A stretch of 64,000 nt of DNA from Haematobacter genomosp. 1 (lineage in GTDB: Bacteria; Pseudomonadota; Alphaproteobacteria; Rhodobacterales; Rhodobacteraceae): NCBI RefSeq assembly GCF_002196855.1, contig NZ_NIPW01000006.1:124001-188000 (forward strand), given 5' to 3'. Shown one piece after another: positions 10,427 to 61,820 of this stretch. The position numbers were made by a program, and so were the translations under genes. Positions within the stretch are counted from its first letter, which is position 1, and the number at the start of each line of letters is the position of its first letter. The notes below the pieces were generated by a model. The model was not told the origin of the DNA, searched no databases, and worked only from the letters and a program-made list of their open reading frames with translations.

Positions 10427-10565
10427 ACCCGTGGGGGTGATTTCGGGTGGGCCTGACGTTTGGAGGCGCGCGCCAGCAACAAGATAGCGCTTCTTTCACG
10501 AAAGTGCCGGTCGTGTAGGGTGTTGCGCTGCGGATCCTCACCAAGGGAGATTTAGACATCTCCAC
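10427..10565. other. Intergenic, nothing recognised apart from the adjoining repeat
   Basis: First part of the 340-base gap between two converging genes. No coding potential or clear RNA structure was seen here; the repeat element and the terminator listed next fill the rest of the gap. Confidence 0.5.
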
Positions 10566-10707
10566 GGACTGCTGAAAAGGCGTTCAGGTCTGCGTTGAGG
10601 CGGTGATCGTTCGCAATCCAAAGAAGAATTCAAACGGTTCTGATCATCCAGGAGCCGATTTCCCGATTTGCGGAACAGGACATTTCAGGGCTTTTTCAGC
10701 AGCCTGC
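10566..10707 (-). repeat. Dispersed intergenic element, copy A
   Basis: About 142 bp bounded by imperfect inverted ends, ACTGCTGAAAAGGC at the left and CTTTTTCAGCAGCC at the right. The interior matches copies C (52686) and D (60894): AGGTCTGC followed by ATCGTTCGCAA is shared with C, and the reverse complement GAAATCGGC plus GGATGATC is shared with D. It has no coding capacity. It looks like a MITE-like or structured intergenic repeat and lies between convergent genes. Confidence 0.7.
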
Positions 10708-10722
10708 CAAGCGCAGCAAAGA

Positions 10723-10752
10723 AAAGGCCCCGCTGCGCACAGCGGGGCCTTT
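10723..10752. terminator. Bidirectional intrinsic terminator
   Basis: A 12-bp perfect stem (AAAGGCCCCGCT / AGCGGGGCCTTT) closes a six-base loop just after the clpA stop on the minus strand. A- and T-rich ends on both sides suit either direction. Confidence 0.8.
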
Positions 10753-26801: not shown

Positions 26802-26941
26802 GTCGTTCTCCTCTTCGCGCGGGAGGCTAGGGGAGGGCGCAGCCCGCCGCAAGCGGCGCGTGACCGACCGGTGACAGCGCAGTCATTCCAGGCGGGGAGT
26901 TCCGGCACCGGTCATCCGTCCGGCAGAGGATGAGACGGAAC

Positions 26942-26979
26942 CTCGCAGGGCCAGTGTCCGCTCGCAAGGCCAGTGTCCG
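26942..26979. repeat. Tandem 19-bp repeat, two units
   Basis: CTCGCAGGGCCAGTGTCCG is followed at once by CTCGCAAGGCCAGTGTCCG, differing by one base. It lies between metY and the small secreted protein gene. Confidence 0.8.
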
Positions 26980-32641: not shown

Positions 32642-32670
32642 TTGACGTCGCAGCCGGGGAGGCTTATCCG
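32642..32670 (+). promoter_or_regulatory. Sigma-70-type promoter of metZ
   Basis: TTGACG (32642-32647), a 17-bp spacer and TATCCG (32665-32670). The expected transcription start, about 32677, falls where the riboswitch begins, which supports the call. Confidence 0.65.
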
Positions 32671-32672
32671 AA

Positions 32673-32729
32673 CGGGCGTGGCGATTTGTTACCGGATTGC
32701 GGGCCACGTTAAACAAGCCGCTAAAGAGG
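32673..32729 (+). promoter_or_regulatory. SAM-II riboswitch
   Basis: The conserved core is visible: CGTGGCGATTTG (32677-32688), CCGGATTGC, GCCACGTTAAACAA (32703-32716) and GCTAAAGAG. Helix P1 is CGTGGC (32677-32682) with GCCACG (32703-32708); the downstream GCTAAAGAG pairs back into the first loop as the H-type pseudoknot. SAM-II binds S-adenosylmethionine and typically lowers expression of the following methionine gene. It ends about 70 bases before the metZ start. Confidence 0.93.
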
Positions 32730-32800
32730 TGTAGGTCATCCGCGGATCCGCTCCCGGTCTCCGACACCCGTTCCGGGCGAGAGACGTGGAGACGTGAAGA

Positions 32801-33979
32801 ATGAACAACTGGAACAGCCGCACGAAACTGGTTCACGCGGGCACCCGGCGTAGCCAGTATGGCGAGGTCGCCGAGGCCATCTTCCTGACGCAGGGCTTCG
32901 TTTACGACAGTGCCGAACAGGCGGAAGCGCGGTTCATCGAAACCGGGCCGGACGAGTTCATCTATGCCCGCTATGGCAACCCGACCGTGCGGATGCTGGA
33001 GGAACGGATGGCCGCGACGGAGGGGACGGAGGACGCCTTCGCCACCGCTTCGGGGATGGCCGCGGTCAACGGCGCGCTGGTGTCGCTGCTCAAGGCGGGG
33101 GATCATGTCGTGGCGGCGCGGCAGCTTTTCGGCTCCTGCCTCTATATCCTCAACAACGTTCTCGGTCGTTACGGGGTGGAGGTCACCCTGGTCGATGGCA
33201 CGAACCTTGCGGAATGGGAGGCCGCAGTGCGTCCCGGAACGAAGGCCGTGTTCTTCGAATCCGTCTCCAACCCGACACTCGAGGTCATGGATATCGCCGG
33301 TATCGCCCGGATCGCGCATCGCGTGGGGGCGCTGGTCGTGGTGGACAACGTCTTTGCCACGCCGCTCGAGTCGCGGGCCGTGGCGCTCGGGGCGGATGCC
33401 GTCGTTTACTCCACCACCAAGCATGTGGACGGGCAGGGGCGCTGTCTGGGCGGCATGATCCTCGGTTCCAAGGAGTTCATCCGCAAGACGGTGGAGCCTT
33501 ACCTGAAGCATACGGGCGGCGCGATGAGCCCGTTCAACGCCTGGGTGATGCTCAAGGGGATCGAGACGCTGGACCTTCGTGTGCGCGCCGCCGCCGACTC
33601 CGCCAGGGCGATCGCCGAGGCGGTCCAGGGGCACGGCAAGCTGGCCCATGTGATCTACCCCGGCCTTGCCGATCATGCGCAACATGCGCTCGCCGCACGG
33701 CAGATGCCGAATGGCGGTACGCTCCTGGCGCTCGACCTGAAGGGCGGGAAGGAGGCGGCGTTCCGTTTCCTCAACGCGCTGAAGATCTTCACGATCACCA
33801 ACAATCTCGGTGATTCCAAGAGCCTTGTGACGCATCCGGCAACGACCACCCATTCCAGCCTGACCGATGAGGCGCGTGCTGTCGCGGGTATCGGGCCGGG
33901 GCTGGTGCGGGTGAGCATCGGGCTGGAGGATACGCAGGACCTGATCGAAGATGTCATGAAGGCACTGGAAGCGGCCTGA
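32801..33979 (+). CDS. metZ: O-succinylhomoserine sulfhydrylase
   Basis: A PLP enzyme that makes homocysteine directly from an O-acylhomoserine and sulfide. The 392 residues start with NNWNSRTKLVHAGTRRSQYG, the usual MetZ N-terminus. YARYGNPT holds the phosphate loop, VYSTTKHVDGQG the PLP lysine, and NLGDSKSLVTHPATTTH the C-domain. It is shorter than MetY at 25515, as expected. A promoter and SAM-II riboswitch stand upstream, so it should be repressed when SAM is plentiful. Confidence 0.95.
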   Translation: MNNWNSRTKLVHAGTRRSQYGEVAEAIFLTQGFVYDSAEQAEARFIETGPDEFIYARYGNPTVRMLEERMAATEGTEDAFATASGMAAVNGALVSLLKAGDHVVAARQLFGSCLYILNNVLGRYGVEVTLVDGTNLAEWEAAVRPGTKAVFFESVSNPTLEVMDIAGIARIAHRVGALVVVDNVFATPLESRAVALGADAVVYSTTKHVDGQGRCLGGMILGSKEFIRKTVEPYLKHTGGAMSPFNAWVMLKGIETLDLRVRAAADSARAIAEAVQGHGKLAHVIYPGLADHAQHALAARQMPNGGTLLALDLKGGKEAAFRFLNALKIFTITNNLGDSKSLVTHPATTTHSSLTDEARAVAGIGPGLVRVSIGLEDTQDLIEDVMKALEAA

Positions 33980-35587: not shown

Positions 35588-37036
35588 ATGCTGGACGTGC
35601 GACCTGTCGGATACATCATCGGTCTGCTGGTCGCCGTCATTGGACTGGCGATGCTTGCGCCGCTTGCGCTGGAGGTGGCGCTCCGCACGCCGCACTGGCG
35701 GCCGTTCGCGGAGGGCGCGATTGTCACCGTCCTCACCGGCGCTCTCGTGGCGCTTGCCTGCCGGGGAGAGAGCCGGCATGGCCTCACGATACGCCAGTCT
35801 TTTCTGCTCACTACGGGGACGTGGATCGTGCTGCCGTTCTTTGGTGCGCTGCCGCTGATGATCGGCGCACCCCATGCGAACCTGACGGATGCCTATTTCG
35901 AGGCGATGTCCGGCTTCACCACCACGGGCACCACGGTTTTCGTCGGGCTGGATGATCTGCCGCAGGGCACGAACCTGTGGCGGGCGATGATGAACGGCAT
36001 GGGCGGGCTCGGCATCGTCATCGTGGCGATGATCTTCCTGCCGGTGATGCGCGTGGGGGGCATGCAGTTCTTCCGCTCCGAAGGGTTCGACACGCTGGGC
36101 AAGGTCTTGCCGCGGGCCATCGACATCGCGGGCGCACTTCTGCGGCTTTACATCGTGCTGACGGTCACTTTCATCGTGATCTTCCGCATGCTAGGCCTTT
36201 CGGCCTATGATGCGACGGTGATGGCGCTGTCCTCCGTTTCCACAGGCGGATTTTCCAGCTACGACGACAGCTTCGCGCGCTTTGGCCCGGGGCCGCAATG
36301 GGCGGCGGTGGTGTTCATGATCATCGCCTCCACCCCGTTCATCCGCTACATCCAGCTCGTCCGGGGGGATCCGACGCCGCTCTGGCGGGACGTGCAGGTC
36401 CGGGCCTATCTCCGCTGGCTGTTCTACGCGGTGATGCTGGTCTTTCTGTATCGCACGCTGGTCTCCGGCGCGCCCGTTGTTCAGACGTTGCAGGAGAGTG
36501 CCTTCAACGTGGTGTCGCTGTTCTCCGGCACGGGTCTGACGACGGCGGATGCCTCCAGTTGGGGGCAGTTTCCGTTGACGGTGGTCATTCTGGCGGGGCT
36601 GGTCGGGGGGTGCACATCCTCCACCGGCTGTTCGATCAAGGTGTTCCGCTTCCTGATCCTCTTTCAGGCAATCCGCAGCCAGATCCTGCGGATCAACTCC
36701 CCCCATGCGATGCATCCCGTCCGGTTGGAGGGACGGGTGGTGGATTCGGATGTGCTGAATTCGGTGATCCTGTTCTTCACCATATTCATGCTGAGCCTCG
36801 GCGTGCTGACGCTTGGCCTGTCGGTCTGCGGGCTGCATTTCCGCACCGCCATGACGGCCGCCTGGACGGCAATCGCCAATGTCGGCACCGTCTATGGGCC
36901 GGAGGTGGAGGCCAGCGGGGCGGTGGCGGGTTTCCCGCGCACCGCGAAATGGCTGATGACCTTCGGAATGTTGCTCGGGCGGCTGGAGCTTATCGCGGTA
37001 TTCGTGCTGCTGATGCCCCGCTTCTGGCGCGGCTAG
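35588..37036 (+). CDS. trkH: TrkH family potassium uptake protein
   Basis: The membrane channel part of the Trk K+ uptake system. It has 482 residues and the fourfold M1-P-M2 layout. Selectivity-filter-like segments are SGFTTTGTTV, SSVSTGGFSS, FSGTGLTTADA and AIANVGTVYG. STGCSIKVFRFLILFQA includes the Lys-containing intramembrane loop. No trkA is adjacent, so the cytoplasmic regulator must be elsewhere. Its TAG stop lies in the CTAG that opens repeat copy B. Confidence 0.95.
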   Translation: MLDVRPVGYIIGLLVAVIGLAMLAPLALEVALRTPHWRPFAEGAIVTVLTGALVALACRGESRHGLTIRQSFLLTTGTWIVLPFFGALPLMIGAPHANLTDAYFEAMSGFTTTGTTVFVGLDDLPQGTNLWRAMMNGMGGLGIVIVAMIFLPVMRVGGMQFFRSEGFDTLGKVLPRAIDIAGALLRLYIVLTVTFIVIFRMLGLSAYDATVMALSSVSTGGFSSYDDSFARFGPGPQWAAVVFMIIASTPFIRYIQLVRGDPTPLWRDVQVRAYLRWLFYAVMLVFLYRTLVSGAPVVQTLQESAFNVVSLFSGTGLTTADASSWGQFPLTVVILAGLVGGCTSSTGCSIKVFRFLILFQAIRSQILRINSPHAMHPVRLEGRVVDSDVLNSVILFFTIFMLSLGVLTLGLSVCGLHFRTAMTAAWTAIANVGTVYGPEVEASGAVAGFPRTAKWLMTFGMLLGRLELIAVFVLLMPRFWRG

Positions 37037-37199
37037 CAGGGTGCTGAAAAGGGTTCCGAGTTTGCTCCTGGGCGGAGATCCTTCCTACATGGGTGAAGAT
37101 CTCCCCGGAAACCGCAGGTCTTGGCTCGTGCCCGGACCGATTTTCTGCTTCTCAGCGCAGGGCCGGGTGAACCCACGACTTTTTCCAGCAGCCTGCTAG
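37033..37199 (-). repeat. Dispersed intergenic element, copy B, bounded by CTAG
   Basis: A 167-bp element whose ends, CTAGCAGGGTGCTGAAAA at the left and the complement of CTAGCAGGCTGCTGGAAAA at the right, are inverted repeats beginning with CTAG. Its interior is mostly unlike copies A, C and D except for an AAAATCGG block on the minus strand. An internal hairpin GGAGATC / GATCTCC is present. The CTAG at each end carries the TAG stop codon of the gene entering from that side. Confidence 0.7.
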
Positions 37200-38854
37200 T
37201 TCCAGCAGGCGATGCGGAGCGTGATCGCGCGGGCCAGCGTGGCCAGCGCCTCCGGCTCCAGCGTAACCGGCGAGGCGGCGCCTTCCAGCGGCAGATCGCG
37301 GGCAGGGATGGCGCGTGCGACGGCCCCCGGCCCGCTCGCGGGCAGCAGCATTCCCAGGATGCCACCCGTCCGGTCGAGCACCGGCCCGCCCGCGTCCCCG
37401 GGCGTCGTGCGGAGGGCCAGCCGCGCCCGCCCATCCGTCTCGCCGTTGTAGCGCCCCTTGAGGATCGCAGCCCGCGCCCCGCCCGGCGTCGCCCCATAGC
37501 CCGCCGCGACGATCTCTCCGCTTCCCAGCGGCTTCAGCGGCGCGCCCGCAGGCGGGGCGACGGGGCCGGGTGCCATCTGGCCCTCCGGCCGCAGAATGGT
37601 GAGCTCGCCGCGCTGTTCCTCAACCACCATCGTAGCCGGGGCTAAGCCCTCCGCCGCCGCGGTGATCCGGGTGCAGCCGGCCACGGCCTCCGTGACGGTC
37701 GCCACACGCCCTGCCGCATCGAGCCGGAAGCCGGTGGCACGGCGCGTGGGCCTGCCGATGTCCACCCCGGCCAGCAGGGCCGCGCGATCCGCTTCGCCCA
37801 TCCTGCCCGCCGTGGGGTCCAATGCGCGGCCGGGCAGGGGGTGGAAGCTGCGCCGGATTTCCGCCACGACACGCTTCATTTCCGCCTCCCGGTCCAGCGG
37901 CCAGACCGCGATCCAGCCCTTGATGACATCGCCTTCGAGCCGGGCCTCTCCTTCCGCCGCGCGGCTGCCGTCTCTTGCGCTGAGGGTGAACCCCTCCGGT
38001 CCGAAGCTGTTCAGGCGCCCACCGGGAAGGGCGAGGGTCTCTGTCGCCTCGAAGGTGCGTGTCAGCGGGCCGTCCGGTGCGGAGATGAGCAGCACCTCCA
38101 CCCCGTCGTCGCCCGCATAGCGTACGAAGGGCGGCTCATAACCCCGGAACGCCAAAAGCCCGAGCGGCAGGGTAACGCGGATCCCGGAGGGGCCTTCGGT
38201 GACCTCCGTCATGCCGAGATGGGCCACCTGCGCGCGGTAGCGGGCCACAAGGGCCGCACGGCTTTCGGGGCCGGGCGAGCCTGTCTCCGGCTCTCCGTTC
38301 AGGCGCTGCCATGCGGAAAGGGCGGCCCGTGTGCCGGAACCGAAAGCCCCGTCGATCCTACCGTCATAAAGGCCGAGCCATGCCAGCGCCGTCTGCGTCT
38401 CCCTGCGTTCCTCCAGCGAAAGCTGGCTCTCCGCCCGCCGCGCGCTATCGGGGCCGGTCGGAGCGGTGGGCGCCGCCGGGCGGCGTGGCGGACTGGCGGC
38501 GAGCATTGCCTGCGCCTCGGCCCGTACGCCCTGCGGCCAGAAGCGCGCGCCATAGGCCGCACCGCGCATCAGGTAGCTGTCATGCGGAACCCGGCCTTCG
38601 CCCTGCAGCTCCGCCAGCCGCTTCTCCGCCTCCGCGCGGGAAAACGGTCCGATGGCAAGCGCGTGCCAGCCGGTGGGCAGCAGGAAGCCGGCCAGATCGG
38701 GAAACTCCCGCTGCCAAAGATGCGCCCGATCCAGTGCCTCCGCCTCGGCCGGGCGGGCCTCGATCTGGATCCATACCGCATCCTCGGCCCGGGCGGGTTG
38801 GCCCAGCACGAGAGCGAGAGCGATAACCCATGCCGCCACCACAAAAATCCGCAT
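37196..38854 (-). CDS. Secreted SPOR-like/peptidoglycan-binding protein with inactive trypsin-like domain
   Basis: A 552-residue exported protein. The signal peptide ends near ARA (residue 23). Residues 26-100 look SPOR-like, 150-185 form a PG_binding_1-type domain (WLGLYDGRIDGAFGSGTRAAL), and about 365-510 form a trypsin/DegP-like domain. All three catalytic positions appear changed: TVTEAV has Glu389 for His, RGELTIL has Glu417 for Asp, and PGDAGGPVLD has Ala488 for Ser. It is therefore probably a structural or ligand-binding protein at the cell wall. ATG 38854 begins the signal peptide; upstream frame is not credible. It is divergent from glyQ. Confidence 0.78.
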   Translation of the reverse strand: MRIFVVAAWVIALALVLGQPARAEDAVWIQIEARPAEAEALDRAHLWQREFPDLAGFLLPTGWHALAIGPFSRAEAEKRLAELQGEGRVPHDSYLMRGAAYGARFWPQGVRAEAQAMLAASPPRRPAAPTAPTGPDSARRAESQLSLEERRETQTALAWLGLYDGRIDGAFGSGTRAALSAWQRLNGEPETGSPGPESRAALVARYRAQVAHLGMTEVTEGPSGIRVTLPLGLLAFRGYEPPFVRYAGDDGVEVLLISAPDGPLTRTFEATETLALPGGRLNSFGPEGFTLSARDGSRAAEGEARLEGDVIKGWIAVWPLDREAEMKRVVAEIRRSFHPLPGRALDPTAGRMGEADRAALLAGVDIGRPTRRATGFRLDAAGRVATVTEAVAGCTRITAAAEGLAPATMVVEEQRGELTILRPEGQMAPGPVAPPAGAPLKPLGSGEIVAAGYGATPGGARAAILKGRYNGETDGRARLALRTTPGDAGGPVLDRTGGILGMLLPASGPGAVARAIPARDLPLEGAASPVTLEPEALATLARAITLRIACWN

Positions 38855-38997
38855 CTCTGCCCCTTCTTCTGCCGTGTTCCCGGCTTTGGAGGCGACATTA
38901 GCGCGCCCGCCGCCATTTCGCATCCGCGAAAACGGGGGCTGCCGTTGACCGCCCCGCGCCCCGCGCCTATGGAGATGACGACCTTTCAGGAGGCAGC

Positions 38998-39927
38998 ATG
39001 GCACCCGCAACCACCCCCCGGAGCTTTCAGGAGATCATCCTGCGGCTTCAATCCTATTGGGCCGCGAAAGGCTGCGCGGTGTTGCAGCCCTATGACATGG
39101 AGGTCGGCGCGGGCACGTTCCACCCGGCAACCACGCTCCGCGCGCTGGGAACGAAGCCCTGGGCCGCGGCCTATGTGCAGCCCTCCCGCCGCCCGACGGA
39201 CGGCCGCTATGGTGAGAATCCGAACCGGCTTCAGCACTACTACCAGTATCAGGTGCTGATCAAACCGTCGCCGCCCGATCTTCAGGCGCTATATCTGGGC
39301 TCGCTCGATGCCATCGGCATCGACACGGCGCTCCATGACATCCGCTTCGTGGAGGATGACTGGGAAAGCCCGACGCTGGGCGCTTGGGGGCTGGGCTGGG
39401 AGGTCTGGTGCGACGGGATGGAGGTGAGCCAGTTCACCTATTTCCAGCAGGTCGGCGGCCATGACTGCAAGCCCGTTTCGGGCGAGCTGACGTATGGGCT
39501 GGAACGGCTGGCCATGTATGTCCTGGGCATCGACCACGTGATGGACATGCCCTTCAACGACCCCGCCGCGCCCATTCCGCTCAGTTATGGCGACGTGTTC
39601 CGCCAGACGGAGCAGGAATACAGCCGCTGGAACTTCGATCAGGCCGATACGGCGATGCTGCTCCGGCATTTCGAGGACGCGGAGGCGGAGTGCGAACGCA
39701 TACTCTCCGCCCCGGAGGTGGACAAGGCAGGCCGTCGGATCGTCATGGCGCATCCGGCCTATGACCAGTGCATCAAGGCCAGCCACCTGTTCAACCTGCT
39801 GGACGCCCGCGGCGTGATCTCCGTGACGGAGCGGCAGGCCTATATCGGGCGGGTGCGCGCGCTGGCCAAGAAATGTGCCGATGCCTTCGTCACGACAGAG
39901 GCGGGCGGAGCAGGGGAAGCGGCGTGA
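38998..39927 (+). CDS. glyQ: Glycyl-tRNA synthetase alpha subunit
   Basis: Catalytic subunit of the bacterial alpha2-beta2 glycyl-tRNA synthetase. It has 309 residues; the class II motifs are in [32 protein letters not shown] and the [20 protein letters not shown] stretch. [11 protein letters not shown] is motif 3-like. AGGAGG lies upstream of ATG 38998. The stop overlaps the next gene's GTG (GTGA). glyS follows one gene later. Confidence 0.98.
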
Positions 39928-52423: not shown

Positions 52424-52934
52424 CGTAATACTTCCTTATCATAGATGTCGCCCGCAGGAGGCGGCGACCCGGCAAAGCTGAAAATCGAAAGCTGAGCCGA
52501 AAGGAACAGGTTCGAAAAGCATAGATGCCGGTCGTATATAAGTGTTGGGGAAATAATTGCGAGTGGGCAAGTTAAAATTTCTTGGTTTGATGCAAAGAAA
52601 GTTCTGGAAGCGGGGCAGGGGTGCTCCCGTTCTCACCAGATTGCTTCATCCCAAAGCCTTTTCTAGGTTCCGGCCCCTCCTGGTGGGCAGCTGAAAATGG
52701 CTTTCAGGTCTGCCTTGGAGCGGAAATCGTTCGCAACTTGGCACCGTCCGGTCGGAAGGCCGCACATTTCGCATTCATTCAGGAGCTGATTCTCCAATCT
52801 CCGGCGCACAGGCATGACACTTCGGCCCGCTGGAGGCCAATCGGGTGACTGTCGGGCGCGGGCTGGGATCGCCCGGGGATCAGCCGGAGCGGACGACTGT
52901 CGCCAAGATATTCCGGCGCTGCTAGCGTCGAAGG
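52424..52934. other. 511-base gap upstream of the cold-shock gene
   Basis: Holds the presumed cold-shock leader and promoter region (AT-richer, about 52430-52620), repeat copy C (52686-52838) and the short upstream region of the lipase-like gene. No gene is credible here. Confidence 0.5.
52686..52838 (-). repeat. Dispersed intergenic element, copy C (right end decayed)
   Basis: About 150 bp. The left end GGCAGCTGAAAATGGC matches the family end. The interior shares AGGTCTGC and ATCGTTCGCAA with copy A, and its complement shares GTCATGCC with D. The right end has lost its inverted repeat, so the copy looks old. Confidence 0.6.
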
Positions 52935-58902: not shown

Positions 58903-59107
58903 GCTGTCCCTCGGCTTTCCCCGCCGCGGGGAAATCGCGGCGTGCCGGGGCTTTAGAGCCGTGCTGGCCTTCCGATCAAGCATGGACAGACGAGGGTGAT
59001 TGCGAAAAGGCGGATGATCCGCCTTTTCCATCCGGGTCGGGAGAAAAATTTTCTCAAAACCCGAAATGCGCAACGCTGTTTTTGGACTATTCGTCCTGCG
59101 CTGGCCC

Positions 59108-60151
59108 TCACTCCGCGGGGCGCGCGACTCTGCCCGTTGCTTGCGTCACATCGGCGGGCATGTCGTTGGAGATGGTTCCCAGCCCGAGGTCCGGGGTGAC
59201 CGGCTCCGCCTCGCCCTGCTGCGCGAGCCAGCGCTCCGCATCAAGCGCGGCCATGCAGCCCATGCCGGCCGAGGTCACCGCCTGCCGATAGGTGTGGTCC
59301 GTCAGGTCGCCCGCGGCGAAGACGCCGGGGATGGAGGTCTGCGTGCTGCCCGGTTCCACCCAGACGTAGCCGCCCGAATGCAGGCGGAGCTGGTCCTTCA
59401 CCAGTTCCGAGGCAGGGTGGTGGCCGATCGCCACGAAGAAGCCGTCGCAGGCCACTGTCTGCTCCTCCCCCGTCACCGCGTCGCGCAGCCGGACACCGGT
59501 CACGCCCAGGGGGTCCGTGGTGCCGAGGATCTCTTCCACCTCACGGTTCCAGAGCACCTCCACCTTCGGGTTGGCGAAAAGGCGGTTCTGCATGATCCGC
59601 TCTGCCCTGAGCGAATCGCGGCGATGGACGAGGGTGACCTTGCTGGCGAAGTTCGTCAGGAACAGCGCCTCCTCAACGGCGGTATTGCCGCCGCCGATCA
59701 CCACCACATGCTTGCCGCGGTAGAAGAAGCCGTCGCAGGTCGCGCAGGCGGAGACGCCGAAGCCCTTGAACGTCTCCTCCGACGGCAGGCCGAGCCATTT
59801 CGCCTGCGCCCCTGTGGCGAGGATCACCGAGTCTGCGGTGAAGGTCTGCCCGCTGTCGGTTTCCGCGCGGAACGGGCGGGAGCGGAGGTCGAGCTGCGAC
59901 ACCATGTCCGGGATCACTTCCGCGCCCATCTCGCGCGCGTGATCGCCCATACGGAGCATGAGGTCCGGCCCCATCACGGCGGTATCGCCGGGCCAGTTCT
60001 CCACATCCGTGGTGATGGTGAGCTGGCCGCCGGGTTGCAGCCCCTCGATCACCACGGGTTCCAGCATCGCCCGCGCGGCATAGATCGCGGCGGTATAGCC
60101 GGCCGGGCCGGAGCCGATGATCAGGACACGGGTATGACGGGTGTCGGCCAT
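59108..60151 (-). CDS. trxB: Thioredoxin-disulfide reductase
   Basis: FAD enzyme that reduces thioredoxin with NADPH. It has 347 residues: FAD motif [18 protein letters not shown], redox pair CATC in [19 protein letters not shown] motif [16 protein letters not shown] and C-terminal FAD segment [14 protein letters not shown]. The C-terminus is about 25 residues longer than in E. coli. ATG 60151 has GGAGATCCCC upstream. It is divergent from the Lrp regulator gene. Confidence 0.97.
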
Positions 60152-60355
60152 GGGGATCTCCATCTTTGTCGGATAGGGGATATAAGCGTTCCGGGCGCGC
60201 GACGGAAGCCGCCGTTCGGGCGGGAGAGTGACGCAGCGCGATCGCTGCCCGGAAGGCTTGCCCTGTCCGCCATAGGGGAATACATCCCCACCGGCGTCGG
60301 GCAACAATCTTGCCCCGGCCTCCCCTTTTACGCATCAGATGGAGCGGAGCCGCCA

Positions 60356-60856
60356 ATGGCAGGCGAGAAACTCGACCAGATTGACCGGATGATTCTCGCG
60401 GAGCTGCAGGCCGACGGGCGGATGACGAACGTGGAGCTTGCGCGCCGTGTCGGCATTTCCGCGCCGCCCTGCCTGCGCCGCGTGCGTTCGCTTGAGGAAC
60501 AGGGCTTTATCCGCGGCTACCATGCCGAGGTGGATGGCCAGATGCTGGGCTTCGAGGTGCAGGTCTTTGCCATGGTGCGCCTGACGAGCCAGGCGGAGAA
60601 GGACCTGCAGTCCTTCGAGCGTCAGTGTCAGGACTGGCCGCTGGTGCGCGAATGCCACATGCTGAACGGTGAGATCGACTTCATCCTGAAATGCGTGGCT
60701 CCCGATCTGACCAGCTTTCAGCGCTTCCTGACCGGTGATCTGACCGCCGCGCCGAACGTGGCCAGCGTCAAGACATCACTGGTCATCCGGGGTGCGAAGG
60801 ACGAACCGGGCGTGCCTTTCGAGGTACTGGAGGAGCGGCTGAAGCGGCTGGCCTGA
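60356..60856 (+). CDS. Lrp/AsnC family transcriptional regulator
   Basis: A 166-residue regulator. The winged helix covers 5-60 (LDQIDRMILAELQADGRMTN, VELARRVGISAPPCLRRVRSLE), and the RAM ligand/oligomer domain follows (VFAMVRLTSQ, ECHMLNGEIDFILKCV). Such proteins often sense an amino acid; the ligand and targets are unknown. It is divergent from trxB with about 200 bases between, so trxB is one candidate target. Confidence 0.93.
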   Translation: MAGEKLDQIDRMILAELQADGRMTNVELARRVGISAPPCLRRVRSLEEQGFIRGYHAEVDGQMLGFEVQVFAMVRLTSQAEKDLQSFERQCQDWPLVRECHMLNGEIDFILKCVAPDLTSFQRFLTGDLTAAPNVASVKTSLVIRGAKDEPGVPFEVLEERLKRLA

Positions 60857-60893: not shown

Positions 60894-61057
60894 CTAACAG
60901 GCTGCTGAAAAGCTCTGAAGCGTCATGCCCATGCTTCATGGAACAGGAAATCGGCCTCGGAATGATCCGACACATGTAGATTTCCGGCGGGATTCCGCCG
61001 GATTGTAAACGCTCTCCCTTTCAAAACGGACCCATAAGGCTTTTCAGCAGCCTGCTA
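60894..61057 (+). repeat. Dispersed intergenic element, copy D (best-preserved ends)
   Basis: A 164-bp element with near-perfect inverted ends: CAGGCTGCTGAAAAGC at the left and the complement of it at the right (61039-61055). Its interior matches copy A read on the other strand (GGAAATCGGC, ATGATC, GGATTG, AACG, CAA, GACC, then the right end) and copy C (GAAG, GTCATGCC, TGC). A hairpin CCGGCGG / CCGCCGG sits inside. The right end is extended by a duplicate CCTGCTACAG. Confidence 0.75.
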
Positions 61058-61064
61058 CAGCCTG

Positions 61065-61820
61065 CTACAGCCGGATGGCGGAGAGGAGGCGGCCGTAGTC
61101 TGCCTCCCCCGCATGGACGGTACGGCGGTAGGAGAAGAACCGTTCCGGGTCCGAATAGGTGCAATGCCCCGTCCATTCCGCCGCACCGATTCCCGCCTCG
61201 CGGAGCCGGTGGAGGCCGAAGCCCGGCAGGTCGAACATCATCCTGTCGCCCTTTCCCTGCGAGAAGAAGCGGGAATAGGCGCGGTCCTCATCGGTGAAGG
61301 TGTAGAAGAACTCCGGGCCGACCTCGTAGGCGCGCTGGCTGATCGTTGGGCCGATGACGGCGACCGTATCCTGCCGCCGGGCACCCAGCGTTTCCATCCG
61401 GTCGAGCACCGTTTCCAGCACGCCTTCCAGCGCCCCCCGCCAACCTGCATGGGCCGCGCCGATCACGCCCGCCTGCCGGTCCGCGAACAGCACCGGCTCA
61501 CAATCCGCGGTGAGGATGCCGAGAGCGAGGCCCGGCGTCCGGGTCACCATGCCATCGGCGCGGATCGGCGCCTCCGGCGGCGCGTCCAGCACGACCACAT
61601 CGGGAGAATGCACCTGCGCCAGCGTCACCAGCGATTGCGCCGGCAGCGCCAGCGCCTTGGCGGCGCGGGCCCTGTTGATCGCGACAACCTCCGCCAGATC
61701 GCTGGAGCCGGGACCGCAGTTCAGCCCGTGGAAGATGCCGGATGACGCGCCTCCCTTCCGGGTGAAGAAGCCGTGCCTGAGGGGGGCGAGGGCAGGAGAG
61801 GTGATCGGGTCGAGCGTCAT
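61065..61820 (-). CDS. pgeF: Peptidoglycan editing factor PgeF (YfiH, laccase domain)
   Basis: A 251-residue cytoplasmic protein of the YfiH family; PgeF keeps wrong amino acids out of peptidoglycan precursors in E. coli. RHGFFTRKGGASSGIFHGLN opens it, VHSPDV and LTADCEPVLF hold His and Cys metal or catalytic ligands, and AAHAGWRGAL the second His. Its ATG overlaps the methyltransferase stop (ATGA). Its TAG stop comes from the duplicated end of repeat copy D. Confidence 0.95.
   Translation of the reverse strand: MTLDPITSPALAPLRHGFFTRKGGASSGIFHGLNCGPGSSDLAEVVAINRARAAKALALPAQSLVTLAQVHSPDVVVLDAPPEAPIRADGMVTRTPGLALGILTADCEPVLFADRQAGVIGAAHAGWRGALEGVLETVLDRMETLGARRQDTVAVIGPTISQRAYEVGPEFFYTFTDEDRAYSRFFSQGKGDRMMFDLPGFGLHRLREAGIGAAEWTGHCTYSDPERFFSYRRTVHAGEADYGRLLSAIRL

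Follow-up and report, generated by a model that had tools for sequence, protein, structure and literature searches.

The window, a 64,000-nucleotide stretch of the Haematobacter genome G000, holds four related elements in its gaps between genes. Copy A (10565–10706, minus strand) is an old, 142-bp copy of subfamily I; copy B (37037–37195, minus strand) is a 159-bp member of subfamily II; copy C (52685–52838, minus strand) is decayed and its limits are uncertain; and copy D (60898–61054, plus strand) is a 157-bp copy of subfamily I with both ends intact. A profile trained on 40 other copies from G000 (A, B and D excluded, C never included) matched D at 60895–61057 (plus, E = 2.2e-35), A at 10709–10565 (minus, E = 3.3e-26), C at 52824–52685 (minus, E = 3.7e-26, covering model positions 24–162 only) and B at 37198–37034 (minus, E = 7.9e-23), whereas the same profile gave a best E value of 0.39 among 50 dinucleotide-shuffled windows. 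All four are thus homologous and real, as the preliminary description had proposed, and their resemblance clearly exceeds that of shuffled controls. The inverted ends that had been ascribed to all four were recovered in three: at up to two mismatches, the window contains six occurrences of CAGGCTGCTGAAAA, where chance would give 0.29, with two each in A, B and D, and at this threshold neither end is recognisable in C. The longest stop-free stretch in A–D is 43–52 codons, in agreement with the earlier statement that no copy codes for protein.

CTAG directly adjoins B on both sides, and each of the two ends one open reading frame (ORF): the TAG of the left duplication (37033–37036) terminates the plus-strand ORF 35588–37036, and the CTA of the right one (37196–37199) is the stop (TAG) of the minus-strand ORF 37196–39010. 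D is preceded by CTAA (60894–60897), which conforms to the motif YTAR, and followed by a right flank (61055–61067) made of CTAC and then a partial repeat (CTACAGCCTG CTA), whose positions 61065–61067 are the stop codon of the minus-strand ORF 61065–61820. Convergent ORFs, called mechanically, flank A, B and also D (59066–60856, plus, and 61065–61820, minus); the preliminary description had reported this correctly for A and B and had left out D. An Rfam search of the window gave just two hits, one to a tRNA and one to a SAM_alpha riboswitch (RF00521, 60.9 bits, 32668–32745), the latter just upstream of the plus-strand ORF 32801–33979.

All four elements belong to a non-autonomous family of MITEs in the genus Haematobacter. 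Copy D as a BLAST query found 43 matches in G000 (4.2 Mb, 81 contigs), and an alignment of 43 copies gave a 159-bp consensus that starts with CAGG, ends with CCTG and has CAGGCTGCTGAAAAAG as its 16-bp inverted repeat. A sequence-only model yielded at least 151 matches in G000, at least 149 in G001 (H. missouriensis) and 21 in G002 (H. massiliensis-like), so that the lack of further copies, which would have spoken against such a family, is not what is seen; the first two figures are lower bounds because at most 150 candidates were scored per genome. With one mismatch allowed, an 18-base end pattern was present 129 times in G000, and its reversed control not once. The 88 profile matches at the examined G000 loci correspond to 87 copies, because C31:4164 and C31:4273 are two matches to one copy with an internal duplication; 71 copies are nearly full length. 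Among 61 genomes, a consensus-like copy matched three (G000, G001 and G002), all of one genus. The model likewise matched three of 394 genomes of the bacterial family, namely G000, G001 and, with one weak single copy, G186, in a search that scored seven candidates per genome under stricter filters and in a set that did not include G002. An exact 26-base core matched two contigs, both of H. missouriensis CCUG 52307, and the only plasmids matched by a Haematobacter copy were two from Haematobacter itself, pOT1-1 and pOT1-3 of H. massiliensis OT1. In the extent of the match and in identity to the query, the two best copies in G002 equal those on these plasmids, a resemblance of G002 to OT1.

Average linkage at 27% difference divided 74 elements (73 nearly full-length copies and C) into subfamily I, with 55 elements (mean identity 80.5%, closest pair 95.2%), subfamily II, with 17 (mean identity 76.1%), and two singletons, one of which is C. 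A and D, in subfamily I, are 80.1% and 79.7% identical to their nearest relatives, and B has sisters at 84–85% in subfamily II. B had been described by eye as sharing the ends and a single block only; this view had to be given up, and B looked different because it represents the second subfamily.

We examined the flanks of 41 copies with both ends that had been found by BLAST, which avoids the bias of pattern-found copies, although the query began with CTAA and so introduced a small bias of its own. YTAR lay to the left of 24 copies, to the right of 28 and on both sides of 19, and an identical 4-mer was present on both sides in 16 of the 41, compared with a mean of 4.6 and a maximum of 12 in 2,000 shuffles. 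The target duplication of the MITE is a 4-bp YTAR. Empty sites, which the preliminary description had suggested seeking in close strains, were present in G002 at three positions. At the B site, G002 reads GCGCCTAGTTCCAGC with one CTAG, where G000 and G001 have CTAG-element-CTAG; at C36:24990, G002 has CTAA and G000 has TTAG on both sides of the element; and at C27:24068, G002 has TTAG, the element in G000 having a right end without CCTG. The survey examined a third of G002 and located both flanks for 29 of the 88 matches. Five of these had more than 100 bp between the flanks, five came within 2 bp of empty by script (three clean on alignment, two not) and 19 were ambiguous owing to intervening neighbouring copies or poor flanks.

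Complete insertion sequences (ISs) carry the same ends and flanks. YTAR followed by the exact 16-base end was found in 9 of the 394 family genomes. In G372, a 1,364-bp IS has the exact 16-base CAGGCTGCTGAAAAAG at both ends, each behind TTAA; its 392-residue transposase, in which PF05598 and PF01609 were recognised, reaches 258.6 bits against NF033581 (IS5_4, cut-off 140) and 187.1 bits against NF033551 (IS1182), below the cut-off of 270. Close relatives of this protein were detected by tblastn on plasmids of Rhodobacterales and some Rhizobiales, including copies labelled ISRsp13 and ISRssp10. Within the genus itself, G002 carries a complete IS of 1,363 bp with TTAG on both sides, an open 391-codon frame and ends that match CAGGCTGCTGAAAAAG at 15 of 16 positions, with one mismatch per end. 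Six plasmid ISs are flanked by YTAR on either side, and apart from a few mismatches their ends follow CAGGCTGCTGAAAAAG or CAGGCCGCTGAAATAG; the left end of ISRssp10 matches CAGGCTGCTGAAAAAG at 16 of 16 positions. Among the eight ISs examined (those of G372 and G002 and the six plasmid copies, ISRssp10 and ISRsp13 included), all have YTAR at both ends and seven have the same 4 bp twice, the exception being ISRssp10, flanked by CTAA and TTAA. A full-length IS with the same ends, for which the preliminary description had proposed a search, thus exists in G002, in G372 and in six plasmid copies.

We consider it very probable that the MITE was moved by the transposase of an IS5/IS1182-type IS, that it inserted at YTAR with a 4-bp duplication and that its copies lie between genes by way of a stop-bearing target. 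The transposase of such an IS, whose own ends are CAGGCTGCTGAAAAAG, would act on the MITE ends, and copies would be inserted at YTAR with duplication of those 4 bp. An insertion in a stop codon would restore a stop on each side and leave the protein unchanged, as is the case at B and as may hold in general; the rarity of YTAR, together with the stop that it contains on either strand, would then place copies between genes. The IS5/IS1182-type family is the likely partner. The copy number, the inverted ends, the 4-bp YTAR duplication, the empty sites and the full-length ISs with the same ends and flanks support the earlier suggestion that the MITE was mobilised by a transposase from elsewhere.

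The elements could also be MITEs of a different transposase that shares these ends and has escaped detection. Such a view draws on two observations. First, G000 yielded no complete IS of this kind, its sole transposase trace being one 84-residue match, a remnant; G001 contains IS pieces, of which three lie at contig ends or close to them. Second, the MITE interior has no convincing similarity to any of the eight ISs beyond the ~18–25 terminal bases, a single 39-base match to the end of the G002 IS being 77% identical (E = 0.011). However, all eight ISs have these or nearly these ends together with YTAR flanks, and one of them belongs to the same genus. In addition, a chimera in G001 (L115 1419–1780, contig C7), with a TIR at each outer end, joins an IS left end and ~54 transposase codons to MITE positions 25–166. 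The five loci in G000 that encode PF01609 transposases also lack a pair of facing ends, and the best partial end there is a one-sided CAGGCTGCTGACTC in loci L042 and L044, which overlap; these transposases were rejected as partners. A different transposase is therefore improbable, and we retain an IS5/IS1182-type IS as the probable source of mobility. The L115 chimera would result from a deletion that joined an IS to an adjacent MITE. An origin of the MITE itself by internal deletion of a known IS was not borne out, its interior resembling none of the eight convincingly.

Small elements with such ends were also seen elsewhere. G063, from a different genus of the same bacterial family, carries a ~310-bp element of the same end type with an interior unlike this MITE (L087 573–892, with CTAG on both sides; L080 from 1501; L075 1–274), apparently another MITE family that uses the same ends. 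IMG/VR contigs filed as viral contain ~150–165-bp elements with the same ends and YTAR flanks (L100 669–825; L102 3582–3749 and 10677–10844; L104 6526–6683); the two on L102 are similar copies in opposite orientation, weakly like the Haematobacter model (E = 2.5e-8).

The history of the copies was followed across the three Haematobacter genomes. All four window sites, which form an unbiased sample of occupancy in G001, are occupied there, those of A, B and C by the same copy; seven further sites compared between G000 and G001 had been selected around copies in both genomes, and occupancy at these is uninformative. In a tree of 74 G000 and 33 G001 elements, which contains 11 position-matched pairs, five pairs are sisters (A, B, C, C36:24990 and C53:105028; support 0.75–1.0). 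The counterpart of A, at the same site, is 86.5% identical, and that of C 75–76%. The pair at C53:114482 falls in a clade of three, and at C20:29093, C2:49709 and C50:37061 the counterpart is no closer than other copies, a pattern expected from gene conversion or from a burst shortly before the two genomes split. At D and C42:128719, G000 and G001 have different copies that are ~70% alike; the G001 copy at the D site lies in the opposite orientation, and the two at C42:128719 come from different subfamilies. Inversion of D in place was rejected, because aligning the copies in inverted orientation (69.6%) brings no gain over the direct alignment (70.8%). We also dropped the view that nine of the 11 sites hold the same copy in both genomes, as the tree bears out five and two differ. 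In G002, the A site contains a decayed copy (E = 4e-10, profile search of 270 bases) and the C site is ~185 bp shorter between flank matches; the C and D sites gave no profile match there, but no clean junction either. At ~26867–26961 of the window, G001 carries ~1.3 kb more, including a MITE copy (C16:51601–51769) that is absent from the window.

Copies of the family arose before G000 and G001 (H. missouriensis) split, A, B, C and others being common to both, and the expansion took place mostly after the split from G002. In G000, MITE activity appears to have ceased: with only a transposase remnant in this genome, its copies look like fossils, and a fossil family need not share its genome with a partner IS.

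Placement of the copies was compared with the supply of targets. The window contains 52 YTARs, ninefold fewer than its mononucleotide shuffles (472), and in 1.2 Mb of G002 they number 0.61–1.03 per kb. The motif is its own reverse complement in form and holds TAA or TAG on both strands; the single CTAG at the B site in G002 ends convergent open frames of 492 and 612 codons. A target with a stop on both strands would account for the position of A, B and D between convergent ORFs. A preference for stops in either direction beyond the target motif itself was rejected, such stops accounting for 13 of 41 insertions and, across 1.2 Mb of G002, for 330 of its 948 YTAR sites (P = 0.74). Stops in both directions showed a borderline excess, at 5 of 41 insertions against 45 of 948 sites (one-sided P = 0.051), or 7 of 68 when pattern-found copies were added (P = 0.052). 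These frequencies indicate that target supply explains most of the placement. Copies have probably landed at times on the stop signals of genes without harm.

The location of A, B and D between convergent ORFs could instead reflect domestication, with the elements retained there for a function as terminators or as structured elements of another sort; a terminator-like structure was the second option of the preliminary description. Their single strand does fold far better than shuffled sequences, with z = −5.8 when the consensus is folded as DNA and −5.4 when D is folded as RNA. In the nine pairs of counterparts shared by G000 and G001, the elements are 75–89% identical and their 150-bp flanks 71–98%; the element is more conserved than a flank in 5 of 18 comparisons, as a kept function would have it, but less conserved in 13 of 18, which gives no sign of such a function, though the flanks partly code. 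The A–D regions contain zero terminator-like sites against 0.4–0.7 expected by chance, a weak result from a low-sensitivity scan, and RNAalifold on 43 copies returned five pairs, none with changes on both sides, which is equally weak since the stem of the TIRs was missed as well. Many of the sites are unoccupied in G002. With no conserved RNA structure in that analysis and with decayed shared copies, we regard retention as terminators as very unlikely.

Just outside A, at 10724–10752, lies a hairpin, AAAGGCCCCGCTG-CGCA-CAGCGGGGCCTTT, that is conserved in G002 and resembles a terminator acting in both directions on the convergent ORFs. Given its position, it would serve the neighbours of A without the element. 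The terminator scan passes over this hairpin, and for this reason its negative result is weak.

Copies also occur side by side. A script counted 14 neighbouring pairs at 10 bp or less among the 88 matches, of which 11 to 13 remain, as C31:4164/4273 is one copy and those on C24 may be tandem duplications; uniform placement of an assumed 250 copies would give ~0.05. In at least four pairs (C7:121625, C17:87035, C18:44782 and C32:57114), the facing ends are exactly one YTAR apart, the spacing that would follow from insertion of one copy into another's target duplication. By a rough estimate, 250 copies would hold about one eighth of all YTARs, which would bring the count of neighbours near that for random choice of YTAR, without special homing. 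Although the arrays, the high copy number and the intergenic position would also suit REP-like repeats, or spread by recombination without transposition, the 4-bp target duplications and empty sites point to insertion at a staggered cut, and the empty site refutes this account outright for B, so that we set it aside as next to impossible.

We tentatively suggest, at somewhat less than even chances, that what lets the family persist at high copy number in so compact and TA-poor a genome is its target, a self-complementary stop. Where YTAR is the overlapping stop of convergent genes, each insertion would double it and leave either gene with a stop of its own. The doubled YTARs would serve later copies as landing pads, on which arrays build up and older copies at the same site are replaced (D, C42:128719). 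If so, target supply and selection would suffice to predict the MITE map of the genome.

A literature search outside ISfinder and most subscription journals found no published description of the Haematobacter MITE family; elements of its kind are known. Compared by description, the nearest published relative in length, end type, 4-bp repeats and proposed helper is MITEPye1 of Paracoccus yeei (PMC11578231). MITEPye1 is a 159-bp intergenic element with 18-bp TIRs like those of the IS1182-family ISPye18, 4-bp direct repeats and no ORF, present in 1–3 copies per chromosome at 96–100% identity (PMC11578231). Its length equals that of the Haematobacter consensus and its host belongs to the same bacterial family (NCBI taxonomy); on the copy numbers given there, it differs in having 1–3 near-identical copies, compared with at least 151 diverged matches in two subfamilies in G000. 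The same text reports one ISPye18 copy on P. yeei pYEE3 (PMC11578231), and on that report the IS on plasmid pYEE3 of P. yeei CCUG 32053 is probably ISPye18. The naming of these elements conflicts: NCBI labels the transposases of L185 (P. yeei pYEE3) and L073 as IS5 family, the Paracoccus paper calls what is probably the same element as L185 IS1182, and the G372 protein matches both models.

ISRssp10, ISRsp13 and the pYEE3 IS resemble the MITE in their ends, CAGGCTGCTGAAAAAG or CAGGCCGCTGAAAAAC / CAGGCCGCTGAAATAG, behind YTAR, and differ from it in being ~1.37 kb long, in having a transposase gene and in an interior of unconvincing similarity. The ends of IS5 and IS711 differ from those of the Haematobacter MITE. 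Both ISs are reported to have the target motif YTAR, as the MITE does, and IS711 entered one TTAA in both orientations (PMC10359306, PMC2266754); as given there, IS711 duplicates only TA (PMC2266754), compared with 4 bp for the Haematobacter MITE.

Together, these observations provide a species-level history of a MITE family in one genus: one species has a complete IS and few copies, and two others have at least 149 matches each. As one of the two high-copy species has only a transposase remnant, the genus offers a usable case of MITEs that outlive their source. For annotation, more than 100 unlabelled intergenic repeats in Haematobacter genomes gain an identity. Finally, insertion in a stop shared by convergent genes provides a simple and testable reason why such insertions may be harmless.
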